A stretch of 64,000 nt of DNA from positions 1-64,000 of the forward strand of contig JAURWS010000021.1 of NCBI GenBank assembly GCA_030654835.1. Direction: 5' to 3'. Both the position numbers and the translations under genes were made by a program. Origin of the DNA: Gammaproteobacteria bacterium. Its GTDB lineage: Bacteria > Pseudomonadota > Gammaproteobacteria > Pseudomonadales > Pseudohongiellaceae. Positions within the stretch are counted from its first letter, which is position 1; the number at the start of each line of letters is the position of its first letter. Below the pieces are notes generated by a model, which was not told the DNA's origin, did not search any database, and saw nothing but the letters and a program-made list of their open reading frames with translations. This document shows, piece after piece, positions 72 through 48,719 of this stretch.

Positions 72-116
72 GAGTCACTCGCATGTGTAAAGATTTTGCG
101 ATAGTTTACAGGAATT
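1..116 (-). mobile_element. 5' end of an IS5-like insertion sequence
   Basis: This holds the transposase start plus about 45 bases of leader. The outer boundary is inferred from the methyltransferase: its homology runs through RKLT (codon ending near 117) and then becomes an unrelated tail up to the TGA at 75-77. The terminal inverted repeat and target duplication cannot be defined because the other end lies outside the window. Confidence 0.5.
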
Positions 117-1163
117 GGTTAATTTCCGGAGGTGCCCTCTATTTAGTTCTGGATGTAGGAAATGTTTGGCGGAGCCGAATCTGGTATCCACTGTACAAGA
201 AGGCAGGTCATACTCAAGGCGCCGATATTTTCCATTGAAGCCACCAACCAAGTCTATTCTATCGCCAACTTGCTTTATATAGTTTTTCTTGAGAAGGGCT
301 TCAACTGTGCGTTCTCCATGTAGTTTTATGAATAACTTTCGTTCTACTGGATCTGCGTCGCCAAAGTTTCTTATTCGAAGTCTTCTTCTCAATCTCAATA
401 AGTCTTCCAGAGCAGTTCTTTCCTTTTCTGTTATATGGCCAAATGCTTCTGGGATATCCCAAGTGTGGACAGACCTTGGCCCTCCTCGTACATTGCTTAG
501 CTTCTGTCCAGGCAGAATGCGTAATGCAATCTTGTGGTCCTTTGTTTCTGGCTGCAGAAATACTTCATCATGATTAGGGAGACCATCGGTGCCTGACAAA
601 GCAGTTCGTAAAGATACGCCCCTAGTAATATCTAAATTGAACCCTTTAGGTGCACCTTTCCAGGCTATGAGGAACATTCGAATTCTTCTCTGGGAGACTC
701 CAAAATCGAAGGCGTTCAGTTTTATTGATAACGTTTGGTAACCAGTTTTTTGCAGGATTCTGATCATTTCTTCCCAGTAGATTCGATGTCCACCTGACGT
801 TACTCCCGGAACATTTTCCGCTACAAAAACTTTCGGGGATAGCTGTAGTGCAATTCTAGCGCCCGCTATAAGTAAGTCATTTCGTGGATCAACCAATGAG
901 CGCTTCCCGATAGTTGAAAATCCTTGGCAAGGTGATCCAGAGATTACAACATCTGGCGATTGATCTAGAACGGATGGCAATTTGTTCTTCGATAAATCAG
1001 TTTCATAGACTGGTGTGCAACTATTGTTAGATAGATTTAATAGAGCTAAGGGGCTTATATCGAAAGCACCTAGAGGTTTGAACCCCGCTTTGGTCATGCC
1101 GATATCGAAGCCACCGCATCCGGAAAAAAGGCTTATATATGTTGGTGCATTTCTATTGCGCAT
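75..1163 (-). pseudogene. C5-cytosine DNA methyltransferase, C-terminus truncated
   Basis: The product would transfer a methyl group from SAM to cytosine C5 in DNA. Seen are motif I (FSGCGGFDIG, about residue 13), the catalytic PCQ loop (GSPCQGFS, about residue 77), ENVPG (motif VI) and QRRIRMF (motif VIII). The family then has R-x-LTP-x-EAxRLQ, followed about 30 residues later by the GN-x-VP motif X that completes the SAM site. Here the frame reads RKLT and switches to a short unrelated tail, so motif X is missing, apparently by the adjacent IS insertion. The 362-aa length is otherwise typical. The gene is AT-rich compared with the rest of the window, which suggests transfer. Activity is doubtful. 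It may have been the modification partner of a restriction gene now lost. Confidence 0.8.
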
Positions 1164-1366: not shown

Positions 1367-3130
1367 CTATTGAATAATATCCCTTTCTTGGGCCAATTCT
1401 GTTATGAGGTAGTTAGGCCACTCCGCCAACTGCTGACTAGCCCTCAATTTCGCCCGTTGATGTTGCATCGCATGAAACACCGCATTGATGTCCGTGCTTC
1501 CAGTTGCCATAAGTGGCAATGCTGCTTCCGCTTCAATGAAGAATTTTTGCCGCATCGAATCGCTTTCCAGATATGCCTGCTCCCACCAATGGATGATGTG
1601 ATTGCGCGAATGCTGAAGCAAACCCGCCGATGGCAATTTGTCACTCTTGGAATTGTTGGCGCTTGTCGTGGTGGGCATCAGATTCCACAGGTCGTTGTTG
1701 AGCCAGCGTGACCATGGGAAGCAGTGATCGACGGCGTACTTCTCGTTGGCAATGATCAGCCTCTTGTGTGTCCACACGCATTCAACGTGTTGTCCTTGAT
1801 TGTGCAGTTGCTGGATGCGCTCGCTGACTTTTGTCGTATCGCGTTTGGCGTCTATCCACTGGAATGCGCCGCTGTATACGTTGGTGTCGTACTGAAAGCT
1901 CCAGGTCTGCATCAGCTTCACCCACTCGTTGAAGATGGCAGGCTCCAGCCAGCAGGCATATTGGCTGAAGCATTGCCACAATGCGGCAGGGATGCGGAAG
2001 GTGCCAAACTGTTGCAATTTCTCGCGAGTGATCTGCCAGGGTGCGGAGCCATGCTTGACCGTCTTCGTCTCACACTCAAACACCTGGCGGTTTTCGCCGG
2101 GGTAGGTGATGTAGTGGGCGGGCATGAGTTTGATGTTGATGCAGGCATCGCGGATGGCGCCGACAAGGCGTGGTGCAACATTGGCGTCGAACGACGCGCC
2201 GATGCGAAGATCATAGGGGGAAAGATCTTGCAGGCTATAAAAGTGATCCTGCTTGGCCCAGCCGTAGCCGCTTTGCTTCGCGTGAATGGCGGATGGTGTT
2301 TGAATCAGATTGTGACGCAGAACCAGCGGCATATACGTCTTCAGCCAGTACAATCCGACCAGTCCGAATGGAATTTCTACCCAGTCATCGCTGCGCTTCG
2401 TCACCATGCCCGGTGCACCTTCGGCGATGCGAATCAACACGCGCAACAGGCCGAGTTTGTAGGATGCCGCCTTGTTGTCATTGACGATGATGTGCCGCAG
2501 CAGCGGTAGACTTCCCGTGCCATCGTCCGGCAAGGTGAACACCACCGTATCCCACTCCACCTCCTCACGCCGCAAATCGTTTCCGCGGAAACGTCTTTTG
2601 TTCACCAGCGCGCGATCCTGTGCCAGGCGAATCAACTCATCCGCGCTGATGGGATGAAACCGTCCGGCGGCGTCTGGCCCGAGACGCAGGGAAATCACCA
2701 GCATGCCGCCGGGTGCGAGCAACTCACTGACGATACGCATGGCGCGTTCGTGTTGCACAGGCGTCAGATGCATCCAGACGGCGCTGATCAGAATGAGCTG
2801 GAAGCGTTGGTCCAGCGAGCGCAGTTGCTTCAATTCCGGCAATGCGTCGTCGAGCCATGTGACGCCACCAATGGCGGTGCGGGAACTGGCCACCGCGTCG
2901 ATGGTGTGCTGCTCACCCAGCGCACGCAGTTCGGCGTTGGGCTCCACGGCGATGACATCCCAGCCCTTGCTGGCCAGCCATGCGGAATCACGGCCGCTGC
3001 CCGCGCCGATGTCGCACGCGAGCCCGGCTTGTGCGGGCAGCAGGTCGAGCCAGCCACGGTGCACGTCGTCTGGATTCAGTGAACTGTATTGTCGGAACAG
3101 ATCGCTGGCGTTCCGGGTGTAGTAGCCCAT
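1367..3130 (-). CDS. SAM-dependent methyltransferase fused to HNH nuclease
   Basis: This is a 587-aa two-domain protein. Residues 1-190 form a class I SAM methyltransferase with glycine-rich motif I (CDIGAGSGRD, about residue 38) and the post-motif segment LAPGGMLVIS. The middle (about 210-430) contains YKLGLLRVLIRIAE and PFGLVGLYWLK, a helical region of a kind I recall from some HNH nucleases. The C-terminal part (about 460-510) is a beta-beta-alpha metal nuclease: a CVWTHKRL strand, YAVDHCFPWS and LWNLMPTTTSANNSKSDKLP, supplying the H, N and K/N positions. The gene sits between a truncated C5 methyltransferase and MNT/HEPN genes, so a restriction or defence role is likely. The methyltransferase substrate (base, RNA, protein or small molecule) is unknown. 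The start is a plain ATG with no strong competitor. Confidence 0.75.
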   Translation of the reverse strand: MGYYTRNASDLFRQYSSLNPDDVHRGWLDLLPAQAGLACDIGAGSGRDSAWLASKGWDVIAVEPNAELRALGEQHTIDAVASSRTAIGGVTWLDDALPELKQLRSLDQRFQLILISAVWMHLTPVQHERAMRIVSELLAPGGMLVISLRLGPDAAGRFHPISADELIRLAQDRALVNKRRFRGNDLRREEVEWDTVVFTLPDDGTGSLPLLRHIIVNDNKAASYKLGLLRVLIRIAEGAPGMVTKRSDDWVEIPFGLVGLYWLKTYMPLVLRHNLIQTPSAIHAKQSGYGWAKQDHFYSLQDLSPYDLRIGASFDANVAPRLVGAIRDACINIKLMPAHYITYPGENRQVFECETKTVKHGSAPWQITREKLQQFGTFRIPAALWQCFSQYACWLEPAIFNEWVKLMQTWSFQYDTNVYSGAFQWIDAKRDTTKVSERIQQLHNQGQHVECVWTHKRLIIANEKYAVDHCFPWSRWLNNDLWNLMPTTTSANNSKSDKLPSAGLLQHSRNHIIHWWEQAYLESDSMRQKFFIEAEAALPLMATGSTDINAVFHAMQHQRAKLRASQQLAEWPNYLITELAQERDIIQ

Positions 3131-3211: not shown

Positions 3212-3622
3212 CTATAGTTTCACAATCTTGTCTGCAACGACCTGACTCGCTGCTATCAGATCGGTCACAAGTCTCTCGTCAATATTAAGGTCGCCCTCAT
3301 ATTCGCTGAGATTTCTAACGTCGTGGCATTTCGCCAGGATGCGCCAGACTTCGGGGCCCACCTGCAAGGTTAGAGGCAGTACTTGGAAAACGATATAGCG
3401 ATTGACTGGGCGATAGCCATGCCAACGGAGAGCAGCGAGGGAGAGGGCGTGTGCCGCGTTGTAAGCAAGATCAAATCTGCTCTCAAGAGATAATTGTTCA
3501 AAAGATGCATCTTGAAGTCGTGCGAGCCCCGAGCGCTTTAGTCCTGCAAATTCTTGCGGGTCTGGCGGTTCCGGAGACAGAGATTTACCCGGGCCACACA
3601 AATTTGTCAGATGAGATATCAC
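3212..3622 (-). CDS. HEPN-domain protein paired with HTH-nucleotidyltransferase
   Basis: This 136-aa protein resembles the small HEPN proteins that accompany MNT nucleotidyltransferases. It shows the segment SRFDLAYNAAHALSLAALRWHGYRP, typical of that subfamily, and a conserved RNLSEYEG segment in place of the usual R-x4-6-H motif. HEPN proteins are often RNases, but with the histidine missing catalysis cannot be assumed. The start ATG lies inside the 3' end of the upstream nucleotidyltransferase gene (38-base overlap), indicating translational coupling. The pair probably forms a toxin-antitoxin-like unit; which partner is the toxin cannot be decided from sequence. Confidence 0.7.
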   Translation of the reverse strand: MISHLTNLCGPGKSLSPEPPDPQEFAGLKRSGLARLQDASFEQLSLESRFDLAYNAAHALSLAALRWHGYRPVNRYIVFQVLPLTLQVGPEVWRILAKCHDVRNLSEYEGDLNIDERLVTDLIAASQVVADKIVKL

Positions 3623-4250
3623 TTTCTTTCCCCGCTATCCATAGCTTGGGCTGCTCCAGCACGCGTTTGATAAACGCATTGTTCTGGCCGATCCGCTTCA
3701 TCAGTTCCTTGCGCGTATAGACGGTTGGATTGATTTTTCGCTGCAGCGAATGGGCTGTCTCTTCCAGTGTAGTAAAGATATCGGCATACGCCAGGCTGTC
3801 ACTGATGATCATGAGATCGATGTCGCTTGCAGCGGTGTCCTGCGCCTTTGCGACGGAGCCGAAAACAAATGCCATGTGAATCTGTTTCTGAAGAGGCGAG
3901 AGCGCAGTGCGCAGCGCATCGATGAGCCCGGTCGTTTTCAGTATCAAGCCGCGCAGTTCGCTGAAGACGGGAGAGTTGGCATTGGCCTGGTAATGTTTTT
4001 GGCGACCGATGTGGATGGCTGTCACGAGTCCGGAGGATTCAAGACGCGCGAGCTCGCGCTGCACGGCGCCGGATCCAGAGGCGACCAGACCGATGATCTC
4101 GTTGGCGTAGTAGTTGCGGTCGGGGTTGGCGAACAGGAGTCCCAATACGCGCTGCTGCACTTTGGTGAAGAGCGCATCGGCTATGGAGACTGGCTGAATT
4201 TCTGAGTTACCCATTTTGGGCATGATAAGCCCCGATTTGGGTATGAGCAA
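3585..4250 (-). CDS. Winged-HTH nucleotidyltransferase (MNT) protein
   Basis: The N-terminal half (about 25-95) is a winged helix (LLFANPDRNYYANEI, then VQRELARLESSGLVTAI), as in ArsR/MarR-like regulators. The C-terminal half is a minimal nucleotidyltransferase with GS-x10-DxD (FGSVAKAQDTAASDIDLMI, about 130-148). Such fusions are found with HEPN partners and can autoregulate the operon and AMPylate the partner; this is family knowledge, not seen here. An internal ATG (MPKMGNSEI, residue 10) is an alternative start. It overlaps the downstream HEPN gene. Confidence 0.72.
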   Translation of the reverse strand: MLIPKSGLIMPKMGNSEIQPVSIADALFTKVQQRVLGLLFANPDRNYYANEIIGLVASGSGAVQRELARLESSGLVTAIHIGRQKHYQANANSPVFSELRGLILKTTGLIDALRTALSPLQKQIHMAFVFGSVAKAQDTAASDIDLMIISDSLAYADIFTTLEETAHSLQRKINPTVYTRKELMKRIGQNNAFIKRVLEQPKLWIAGKESDISSDKFVWPG

Positions 4251-4353: not shown

Positions 4354-4653
4354 GTGAATCCCATGCTGCTGGATGTCCTGCACACAAACAAAGACCGTAT
4401 CAATGCGCTCGGCAGCCAGTATGGTGCGAGGCGTATCCGTGTGTTTGGCTCTGTTGCCCGACGCGAAGAAGGGCCTGATAGCGATGTCGACTTCCTTGTA
4501 GATTTTCCAAGGGGGTACGACATGTTTACCCAGCGGTTGGCTCTTGCTGATCAGTTGGAAATGCTCTTGGCTCGTCGCGTAGAAGTAATCCCAGAGCATG
4601 AGCTGAACCGTCACATCAGGGATCGAGTTATTGGCGAGGCGGTGGAGCTGTGA
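4354..4653 (+). CDS. mntA: Minimal nucleotidyltransferase, MntA-type antitoxin
   Basis: This 99-aa MNT protein carries GS-x10-DxD (FGSVARREEGPDSDVDFLV, about residues 32-50) and a later acidic strand (VEVIPE). In MntA-HepT systems this enzyme AMPylates a tyrosine of the HEPN RNase and silences it. MNPMLL is the annotated start; MLLDVL three codons later is possible. A GTG four bases before the end of its stop (GTGA overlap) begins a decayed HEPN partner, so this antitoxin appears to be an orphan. It faces the end of ftsH convergently. Confidence 0.72.
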   Translation: MNPMLLDVLHTNKDRINALGSQYGARRIRVFGSVARREEGPDSDVDFLVDFPRGYDMFTQRLALADQLEMLLARRVEVIPEHELNRHIRDRVIGEAVEL

Positions 4654-4784
4654 GCAAACCGTGGCTACCTTTTGTTGGCCATATGGCTTCAGCCTTTCAT
4701 CAACCCCTCCACCGCCTGCCGATCCAGCGTCTCCTTCTCCAGCAACGCATCAATCAATTTCTGCAGTAATTCGCTGTGCGTCTG
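4650..4784 (+). pseudogene. Remnant of HEPN (DUF86/HepT-like) toxin gene
   Basis: A GTG overlapping the mntA stop codon by four bases opens a frame beginning VSKPWLPFVGHM. This resembles the start of DUF86 HEPN proteins (S-K/R-x-W-x-x-F/Y-x-x-x-M). After about 14 codons the frame runs into antisense of the ftsH 3' end and stops near 4784. The preserved overlap and first residues with loss of the body suggest a deletion during formation of this island edge. Confidence 0.5.
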
Positions 4785-6551
4785 CAGCGTGCTGATCGCC
4801 AGCTGCTCGGCGGCGCTGACGATGCGGCGCACTTCTTCGTCGATCCTGCGGGCGGTGTCTTCGCTGAAGTCTTTTTCCTGCGTCAACTCATAACCCAGAA
4901 AGGGATGTTCGGCACCACTGCGGAAGTGCACGGGGCCGATGACGTCGCTCATGCCCCACTGGGTGACCATCATGCGGGCGAGGTGGGTGGCTTGTTCCAG
5001 ATCGTTGGCGGCGCCGGTGCTGACGTTGCCGCACAGCAGCTTCTCTGCGGAGCGTCCGCCCATCAGTACGGCGAGGCGGGTTTGCAGGTAGTCTTCGGAG
5101 TAGTTGTGGCGATCCTCGGTCGGCAGCTGTTCGGTCATGCCCAGCGCGCGGCCGCGCGGGATGATGGTGATCTGGCGCAGCGGGTCGCTCTCCGGCAGTT
5201 TGAGCGCGATCACCGCATGGCCGCTCTCGTGGATGGCGATGCGTTTGCGCTCCTGCGGGTTGAGGAGGTCCTTGCGTTCGCTGCCCAGCAGCACGCGGTC
5301 GTGGGCCTTGCTGAAGTGTTCGCGGGTGACGTTCTCGGACTTGGCGCGTGCGGCGAGCAATGCGGCTTCGTTGACGAGGTTGGCGAGGTCTGCGCCGGAG
5401 AAGCCGACAGTCATGCTGGCCAGCTCCTGGATGTCGACGTCGGCGTTGACGGGCACCTTGCGCAGGTGCACCTTGAGGATCTCCTGGCGCGCGCTGTGCT
5501 GCGGCAGCTCCAGCGTCACCTTGCGGTCGAAGCGGCCCGGGCGCAGCAGCGCGGCGTCGAGCACGTCGGGGCGATTGGTGGCGGCGAGCACTACCACGGC
5601 TACATCGGCGGTGAAGCCGTCCATTTCAGCGAGTACCTGATTCAATGTTTGTTCACGTTCGTCGTTGCCGCCGCCCAGGCCGGTGCCACGCATGCGGCCC
5701 ACGGAGTCGATCTCGTCGATAAAAATCAGAGCGGGCGCCTTCTTGCGCGCCTCTTGAAACATGTCGCGGACCCGTGAGGCGCCGACGCCGACGAACATCT
5801 CGATGAATTCCGAGCCGCTGATGCTGAAGAAGGGGACGCCAGCCTCGTGTGCGGTGGCTTTGGCGAGCATGGTCTTGCCGGTGCCAGGTGGCCCCATCAG
5901 CAGAACGCCGCGTGGCATGCGGGCGCCGAGCTTGCGGAATTCGGCCGGGTCGCGCAGGAAGTCGATGATCTCCTGCAGTTCGCGCTTGGCCTCGTCGGCT
6001 CCGGCGACCTGAGCAAAACTGATGTCGTTGTCGTTGGCCTCGAACAGGCGGGCGCGCGAACGGGCGAAGCCGAACATGCCGTCTTTGCCGCCACCGCCCA
6101 TGCGCTGTTGCAAGACGCGGGAGAAATAGAGGAAGAACACCGCGATCAGCAGCCACGGGAGGATGGTCAGCAGAATCTGCAGCCAGGCGGGCCGGATGGA
6201 GGATTGCGCGCTGATCTGCACGCCGTGCTCCTCTAGTAGAGGCAACAGCTGAGCGTCGTTCAGAGTGGGTGTCACAGTGCTGAAGGTAGAAGCCACGGCA
6301 GCCTGCGCGGAACCCTCGCGGTAGGCGCCAATGATTTCGTTGCCGCGAAAGCTGACGGCAGTCACGGCGTTCTCCGCTACGGCAGCTTTGAATTCGGTGT
6401 AGGAAATCTTGCTGCTGCCGCCCTGCAGCGCCGACATCATCAGGGAATAGATGATGAACACGGTGACCACCCACATGAAGCTGTGGATGTCGAACAGGGG
6501 CGCCTGCGCGGGTTTCTTTTCGGGGGCGTTGGGTGGAGTCTGATCTGCCAT
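4689..6551 (-). CDS. ftsH: ATP-dependent zinc metalloprotease FtsH
   Basis: This is a membrane-anchored AAA+ protease that degrades misfolded membrane proteins and short-lived regulators. Two membrane segments (about 20-42 and 122-145 from the chosen start) bracket a periplasmic loop. Then come Walker A (GPPGTGKT, about 220), Walker B (FIDEID), the second region of homology ([20 protein letters not shown]) and the zinc site HESGH (about 439). The ORF track starts at 6635, but the ATG at 6551 (MADQTPP) follows a GGAG and gives 620 aa, nearer the family length. It is not next to rlmE/folP, its usual partners, so it may be a second FtsH copy. It is divergent from yajD. Confidence 0.93.
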
Positions 6552-6614
6552 GAAGGCTCCGGTGCTTTGGAAAGCGGCTGAAAACAGGTTTGTGTTGAGT
6601 ATAGAAGTGAAAGC

Positions 6615-6633
6615 GTCGCAAAAGCTATGCGAC
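6615..6633. promoter_or_regulatory. Inverted repeat between ftsH and yajD
   Basis: GTCGCA and TGCGAC form a perfect 6-base inverted repeat with a 7-base spacer in the short divergent ftsH/yajD region. It could be an operator or a chance palindrome. Confidence 0.25.
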
Positions 6634-6661
6634 AATCGGCCTCAATACATTGAGGTGCATC

Positions 6662-7072
6662 ATGGCGGGCAACGGATCAGGTAGCAATTCGGGCAAAGGC
6701 ACGGCGGCAGACAAGGCGCTGGACGCGCAGCGGCGTTATATCGCCGAACGGGAGCGGGGCTATCGGGAGCAGGCGCTGAAACTGTATCCGTGGATCTGTG
6801 GGCGTTGTGCGCGGGAATTCACCCGGGTCAACCTGCGCGAGCTGACGGTGCATCACGTCAATCACGACCACGACTGCAATCCGGTCGATGGCAGCAACTG
6901 GGAGCTGCTCTGCCTCTACTGTCACGACGAGGAGCACAGCAAGTTCGCCAACTTCATCCGCTACGGCGGCACTACCGAGAACAAGAAGCAGGCCGCGACG
7001 CACAATCCCTTCGCGGGGCTGCGGGATGCTTTGAAGGGGTCGCAAGGCGGCGGTTCGAATGATCAGACCTGA
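6662..7072 (+). CDS. yajD: YajD family HNH nuclease
   Basis: This small HNH protein has CGRC and CLYC zinc-binding cysteine pairs flanking ELTVHHVNHDHDCNP and GSNWELLCLYCHDEEH, which matches E. coli YajD closely by recall. It ends with the conserved NPFAGLRDAL tail. The ATG at 6662 follows GAGGTG with a six-base spacer, so it is preferred to the ORF-track start at 6650. The cellular role of YajD is not established; it is widespread in gammaproteobacteria and not tied to mobile elements. Confidence 0.88.
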   Translation: MAGNGSGSNSGKGTAADKALDAQRRYIAERERGYREQALKLYPWICGRCAREFTRVNLRELTVHHVNHDHDCNPVDGSNWELLCLYCHDEEHSKFANFIRYGGTTENKKQAATHNPFAGLRDALKGSQGGGSNDQT

Positions 7073-48361: not shown

Positions 48362-48719
48362 TGGTGGAGGCGGGGGGATTTGAACCCCCGTCCGTCAGTC
48401 CGCTGCCTTTGGATCTACATGTGTAGCGTCGTCTATTAAGTTAACCCTCGCCGGCCCGACGGGCAGGGCGGTTCGGGCGAGCCCAGTACTTTTAGCTGCT
48501 TCGCGCTGGGCGCGCTAGGCTGGCGATCCTGTTCTATATGACAGTCACAAAAACACCGGTTTACAGGCATCCCGGGGTGACCGCTAGCCGCACTAAGCGG
48601 CTAGAGCGTAGCTATCGTCGTTGGCAACTAGTAAGTTGCAGTAATTGATTTACGAGAGTTACTACCCTCTCGACATGCACCTCAGGGTTTGATACCGGCG
48701 TCGAATCCAAAGCGCCCCC
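48362..48719 (-). ncRNA. ssrA: tmRNA (transfer-messenger RNA)
   Basis: The RNA rescues stalled ribosomes together with SmpB. The 5' end GGGGGCG pairs with CGCCTCC before the encoded ACCA at the 3' end, forming a 7-bp acceptor stem with one G-U. The T-arm reads GGGGGTTCAAATCCCCC. The tag frame (48625 down to 48593) is GCC AAC GAC GAT AGC TAC GCT CTA GCC GCT TAG, i.e. ANDDSYALAA. The 358-nt length is normal. smpB lies 1.8 kb away on the same strand. Confidence 0.96.

Follow-up and report, generated by a model that had tools for sequence, protein, structure and literature searches.

The minus-strand gene at positions 1367-3130 of the window, by which we mean the whole stretch of 64,000 nucleotides that was analysed, encodes a single polypeptide in which a class I SAM-dependent methyltransferase (MTase) is joined through a helical module to a Cas9-type HNH nuclease. 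Both active sites are kept among its relatives, copies of the fusion are mobile and lie in defence-type neighbourhoods, and effectors are exchanged within the MTase family to which it belongs. We propose that the fusion could represent, in one polypeptide, a modular family of effectors that probably act against invaders, with the MTase as sensor or regulator and the HNH domain as DNase, a reading for which we consider the chances evenly balanced. The features of the locus are listed in Table 1.

Table 1. Coordinates of the fusion gene, its parts and its neighbours in the window
Feature	Position	Strand	Details
C5-cytosine DNA methyltransferase	75-1163	-	PF00145; motifs GSPCQGFS and ENV intact
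MTase-coupling module-HNH fusion gene	1367-3130	-	587 aa; ATG start; stop codon 1367-1369
Conserved helical C-terminal tail	1370-1615	-	Residues 506-587
Cas9-type HNH_4 nuclease domain	1616-1810	-	Residues about 441-505
HNH catalytic D468-H469	1724-1729	-	N483 at 1682-1684; N492 at 1655-1657
Helical coupling module	1811-2533	-	Residues about 200-440; also present in unfused relatives
N-terminal class I SAM MTase domain, TehB/UbiG/NodS-like	2543-3130	-	Residues 1-196; Pfam, Foldseek, conservation
Motif IV region SAVWMH	2768-2785	-	Residues 116-121; where DNA MTases have DPPY
SAM-binding motif I DIGAGSGRD	2987-3013	-	Residues 40-48
PDC-M05B	3212-3622	-	PADLOC match; 136 aa; no Pfam family
PDC-M05A, wHTH-nucleotidyltransferase	3585-4250	-	PADLOC match
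MntA-like nucleotidyltransferase	4354-4653		Score below the NCBIfam cut-off
FtsH	4689-6635		

Domain architecture and predicted structure

The plus strand of the locus is interrupted by stops, and the open reading frame lies on the minus strand. Within its product, Pfam placed Methyltransf_23 at residues 38-162 (E 1.9e-9, above the curated cut-off) and HNH_4 at residues 460-500 (E 1.3e-8, 35.1 bits against a cut-off of 22), which bears out the claim of an earlier note on this DNA that one chain joins the two domains. Structure prediction was done on the whole protein and, separately, on the middle plus the HNH domain. The AlphaFold2 model of the whole protein, built with 61 homologues, had a mean pLDDT of 90.7 and a pTM of 0.88, and in it a Rossmann MTase is followed by a mostly helical middle and the HNH domain; the separate model reached a pLDDT of 89.4. 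When the whole protein was searched by fold against the PDB and viral models, the matches were mainly to MTases. The helical middle had no PDB or Pfam match, and since the sole PDB matches of the middle plus HNH were Cas9 HNH domains, at weak E-values, it is a module without a solved relative. Assignment to the TehB/UbiG-like class I SAM MTases is supported by the Rossmann fold and SAM motif I, and assignment to the HNH_4 superfamily by the profile score together with the catalytic DH and N residues, retained in 59-60 of 60 fusions.

The N-terminal domain had been described beforehand as closer to small-molecule or TehB-like enzymes than to DNA MTases, and Pfam and Foldseek agree with this, the fold matches being UbiG, TehB, NodS and a mycobacterial heterocyclic toxin methyltransferase. 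It was rejected as a TehB tellurite-resistance equivalog (NCBIfam, 29 bits against a cut-off of 218). Its motif IV reads LILISAVWMHL, and the sequence contains neither the DPPY/NPPF motif, whose absence had already been remarked, nor PCQ/ENV. These features bear on the proposal, also made in the earlier note, of a one-gene restriction-modification (R-M) system, in which the MTase would methylate host DNA, the HNH domain would cut unmodified DNA and the middle would read the sequence. In favour of such a system, an MTase and a nuclease share one chain and neither active site is damaged, a layout known from Type IIG enzymes, and C5 MTase and restriction genes adjoin the fusion in some loci; the missing DNA-MTase motifs, the small-molecule MTases as closest folds and a middle with no PDB match, in which no target-recognition domain was identified, speak against it, although the middle may conceivably be a DNA reader of a new kind.

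Conservation and distribution of the fusion

Across 84,980 species genomes that were scanned, 311 relatives were found, and contexts were examined for the best 80 of these 311. Intact full-length fusions account for 75 of the 80 best genome matches, so the fusion is real and cannot be put down to chance; the other five are cut off by the end of a contig, carry an internal deletion or are frameshifted. When 60 fusions were compared, residues G42, G44, G46, R47 and D48 of SAM motif I were found in all of them and D40 in 59, W119 and H121 of the motif IV region in 60 and 59, and, in the HNH domain, D468, N483 and N492 in all 60 and H469 in 59. The coupling module has its own invariant positions (D218, K220, K225, R230, W262, W385 and W403). 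The MTase and HNH halves also diverge in parallel (Mantel r 0.87, against at most 0.15 in 1000 shuffles). With the fusion conserved, its active sites kept and its halves changing together, neither of the two refuting conditions named in the earlier note was borne out, namely homologues in which the domains are usually unrelated separate genes and loss of the HNH catalytic residues across the family.

The residues presumed to lie on the substrate side (Y4, H24, W119, H121, R149 and R188) are kept as strongly as the SAM motif, so the MTase is probably a true enzyme, the acceptor of which could still be a nucleic acid. The same conservation weighs on the idea of a SAM-depletion sensor, according to which the MTase would merely bind SAM or SAH and a drop in SAM, caused for instance by phage SAM-degrading enzymes, would release the effector. 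Such a sensor would explain the nearly invariant SAM motif and the exchange of effectors, membrane protein included, but it would not need the substrate-side residues, and we regard it as quite unlikely.

Ten near full-length copies, with 49-97% identity, were found elsewhere in the genus and family, and the presence of the fusion is patchy within the genus of the window. Full-length fusions are carried on plasmids in Azospirillum, Roseomonas, Sphingobium (a conjugative one) and Pseudoalteromonas. Some taxonomic outliers, among them loci L041 ('Rhodoferax') and L053 ('Thermoanaerobaculia'), hardly differ from copies in Gammaproteobacteria; as these outliers may be mis-binned contigs of metagenome-assembled genomes, we do not claim transfer across phyla from them.

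A shared in-frame internal deletion was observed at the same locus in two species of the genus (L011, 1501-2463, and L017, 1237-2199, in genomes G009 and G010). The deletion takes away the greater part of the MTase and some of the middle, whereas the HNH frame is kept and looks conserved, with a pN/pS of about 0.21 over 26 changes only. An apparently conserved HNH frame from which most of the MTase has been deleted, in two species, argues against an essential antitoxin role of the MTase there.

Genomic neighbourhood

The C5 MTase lies directly downstream of the fusion, on the same strand and after a gap of about 200 nt, and is possibly an island neighbour rather than an established partner. 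Upstream, the PDC-M05B and PDC-M05A genes (PADLOC, E 1e-59 and 2e-82) constitute a candidate two-gene phage-defence pair, another neighbour in the island. Of the surroundings reported in the earlier note, the C5 MTase and both nucleotidyltransferases stand; for 3212-3622 a HEPN assignment found no support in Pfam, and PADLOC identifies this gene as PDC-M05B, the partner of PDC-M05A. Beside the MntA-like gene no HepT/HEPN partner was recognised, the next genes being FtsH and the PDC-M05 pair. A small HNH protein (PF01844, 140 aa) is encoded at 6650-7072, divergent from FtsH, and a tmRNA gene with the tag ANDDSYALAA was located at 48362-48719.

The description of the neighbourhood as defence-like held up among the best 80 of the 311 relatives. 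Nucleases of PLD-SF2-DUF3427 architecture (SauUSI-like) were found near the fusion in 14 of these loci, and C5 DNA methyltransferases within 8 kb of it in 8 of the 80; other enriched neighbours were WYL regulators (8 loci), NERD (6), HNH_2 (5), NYN (4) and DISARM-like helicases (3). In the background genomes, drawn from the whole class, of which there were 114, 6 contained DUF3427 and 29 a C5 methylase, and the Poisson enrichment values, in which the relatedness of loci is ignored, are to be taken as orders of magnitude only. Many fusion loci have no obvious defence neighbour, and no flanking family is common to most of the loci among the best 80. A core gene with conserved synteny was also considered, given the many Alteromonadales among the best matches, and discarded, since the flanking genes are not shared.

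In two loci a Schlafen group 3 helicase-S24 gene stands directly upstream of the fusion, separated from it by -4 or 52 nt. One of them (L044, 5033-9982) has an HNH_2 gene downstream and the other (L056, 3-7443) a SauUSI-like gene upstream; both are apparent multi-effector operons.

Exchangeable partners of the methyltransferase family

When the MTase and the middle-HNH part were used as separate queries, both proved to occur unfused as well. In seven loci an unfused MTase adjoins an unfused HNH_4 gene, with gaps of 2-20 nt or a 65-nt overlap, in one gene order (L127, L200, L220) or the other (L138, L217, L218, L219). The remaining partners are unrelated to HNH_4. In seven loci the MTase shares an operon with an SF2-helicase nuclease, in most cases one with PLD and S24 domains (L128, L133, L144, L204, L206, L221, L222), and in L141 and L216 it is fused to a PLD-SF2-S24 nuclease; two SF2 nucleases that were scanned match the PADLOC Type IV model with about 375-380 bits, and the one in L144 matches the solved structure 7clg (E 3e-88). 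It is likewise operonic with HNH_2 nucleases that resemble phosphorothioate-DNA (PT-DNA) restriction enzymes (L145, L203, L205). Finally, it is fused to a protein with two transmembrane segments (two-TM, assigned from hydropathy) in L207, L212 and Rhizobium, and the two genes overlap by 1-4 nt in E. coli prophages, Agrobacterium and Sphingopyxis. Among the complete genomes of E. coli, 5,426 in number, 43 match the two-TM/MTase pair of phage phi458, 29 of them over at least 80% of the pair. In phi458 and the two prophage regions that were examined (L225, 6037-7214; L226, 5965-7136; L028, 2336-3519) the overlap is 4 nt and a PAPS-reductase family gene adjoins.

Mapping the partners onto a tree of 86 MTase rows required at least 14 changes of partner, against a shuffled mean of 38. 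One change falls inside the genus of the window: the MTase of L144, the nearest unfused relative of the MTase of the window (66-70% identity), is operonic with a PLD-SF2-S24-DUF3427 nuclease and not with an HNH. This swapping of partners, L144 included, implies that effectors with no kinship to one another can all make use of what the MTase provides. No effector adjoins about half of the MTases that occur unfused, and these belong mainly to separate clades. Conversely, cyanobacteria, Deinococcus and Hymenobacter have unfused HNH_4 genes with no MTase next to them, which shows that some members do without it. The small ORFs that precede these HNH_4 genes were dismissed as a fixed partner, as they are not recognisably homologous to one another.

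The SF2 nucleases that partner the MTase repeatedly carry a LexA-like S24 domain, as do two HNH_4 proteins, which, as far as can be judged from the sequences, suggests that the activity of the effectors is held in check. In the two HNH_4 proteins the S24 peptidase domain is fused at the C-terminus (L142, 5283-6956; L220, 5966-7507).

Tight operons in both gene orders, repeated fusions and potentially toxic effectors (DNases and a membrane protein) would also be expected of an enzymatic toxin-antitoxin system, in which the MTase would methylate the partner effector and keep it inactive, in the way that MntA AMPylates HepT in type VII systems. However, a single enzyme family would need to modify four unrelated effectors, orphan MTases without effector and HNH_4 genes without adjacent MTase exist, and the MTase-deleted form of two species looks conserved, all of which makes this explanation unlikely. 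As for one-gene R-M, the same MTase family pairs with the two-TM protein and with SauUSI-like nucleases, and SauUSI itself works without an MTase, as a single chain (PMC3874153). Given that a membrane partner needs no DNA self-protection, a role of the MTase in protective methylation is unlikely, and these partners, along with the lack of a DNA-MTase motif and of an identified target-recognition domain, lead us to set one-gene R-M aside as decidedly improbable.

Several unfused systems lie beside sulfur-linked genes (L127, L145, L199, L212, L227, L228, L030 and the E. coli prophages), among them dndC/dndD, TIGR04096, PAPS-reductase or cysteine-desulfurase genes. In L199 (3249-7018) a same-strand run comprises the MTase, a 203-aa protein of unknown function, a TIGR04096 putative methyltransferase and HNH_4, and dndC adjoins. 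The MTase might therefore act on phosphorothioate DNA or on a thio-intermediate, the nucleases being restriction arms of phosphorothioation systems. DndC was present in 4 of 23 such unfused-system genomes versus 1 of 114 background genomes (Fisher p 0.003), and the TehB-like fold of the MTase and the HNH_2 partners similar to PT-DNA restriction enzymes would fit. Nevertheless, DndC scored above the curated cut-off in none of 28 fused-gene genomes and had no match in the genome of the window, from which it follows that the fused form works without phosphorothioation. We consequently rejected an obligate link for the gene of the window, strong as the association is for several unfused pairs, and regard the explanation as very improbable.

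Proposed mechanism

Among the readings of the fusion gene we favour sensing or abortive infection. A small-molecule or chalcogen-type SAM MTase, rather than a DNA MTase, would be the sensor or regulator, and the reaction that it carries out, whether the acceptor is a non-DNA ligand or the effector, would set the state of the effector. The helical middle would couple the MTase to the Cas9-type HNH, which would cut DNA once released, and cleavage upon activation could result in loss of phage DNA or in abortive infection. We infer the anti-phage role from the neighbourhood, mobility and patchiness of the fusion; control of the effector by the MTase, with DNA cleavage following activation, is likewise an interpretation.

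More broadly, and with somewhat less than even confidence, we put forward that a single SAM MTase of the small-molecule type could serve interchangeable effectors as their shared sensor or trigger. Such modular systems would form a new class of bacterial immunity, of which the gene of the window would be the one-polypeptide form. That the class is categorically new is possible; in the open-licence literature we found no earlier account of methyltransferase-HNH proteins or TehB-type MTases in defence. If true, an MTase that does not modify DNA would have been recruited several times to control DNases and a membrane protein, a use of SAM chemistry distinct from restriction-modification, and many genes whose annotation says no more than 'class I SAM-dependent methyltransferase' or just 'HNH endonuclease' would be accounted for. 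The system offers a testable two-domain protein, a two-gene version in E. coli prophages and a coupling module of a fold without solved relatives.

Comparison with known systems

The fusion shares with Type IIG enzymes an MTase and a nuclease on a single chain, the nuclease active site being intact, but it differs from them in having no DNA-MTase catalytic motif and no identified target-recognition domain, in the replacement of the usual nuclease domain by HNH_4, and in belonging to an MTase family with non-nuclease partners. Its HNH has the sequence and fold of that of Cas9 (HNH_4), whereas RuvC, guide-RNA and PAM parts are absent and the coupling module resembles no PDB entry in either sequence or fold. 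An MTase-like segment of MADS mad2 (PADLOC) matches the N-terminal domain (E 7e-12), although the match is partial, covering 273-401 of the 492 positions of the profile. Membership in MADS was discarded, as the MTase domain of the fusion was the only match among five window proteins scanned, and to mad2 alone. Dnd, TIGR04096 and PT-DNA-binding HNH systems often adjoin the unfused MTase-effector pairs, while the fused form occurs without dndC. SauUSI, the structure of which has been described (PMC7913695), works as one chain that includes an SRA domain and has no MTase, and the protein of the window is devoid of PLD, SF2 helicase and SRA domains; yet SauUSI-type Type IV enzymes are frequent neighbours of the fusion, and relatives with the PLD-SF2-S24-DUF3427 architecture share operons with members of the same MTase family or are fused to them.
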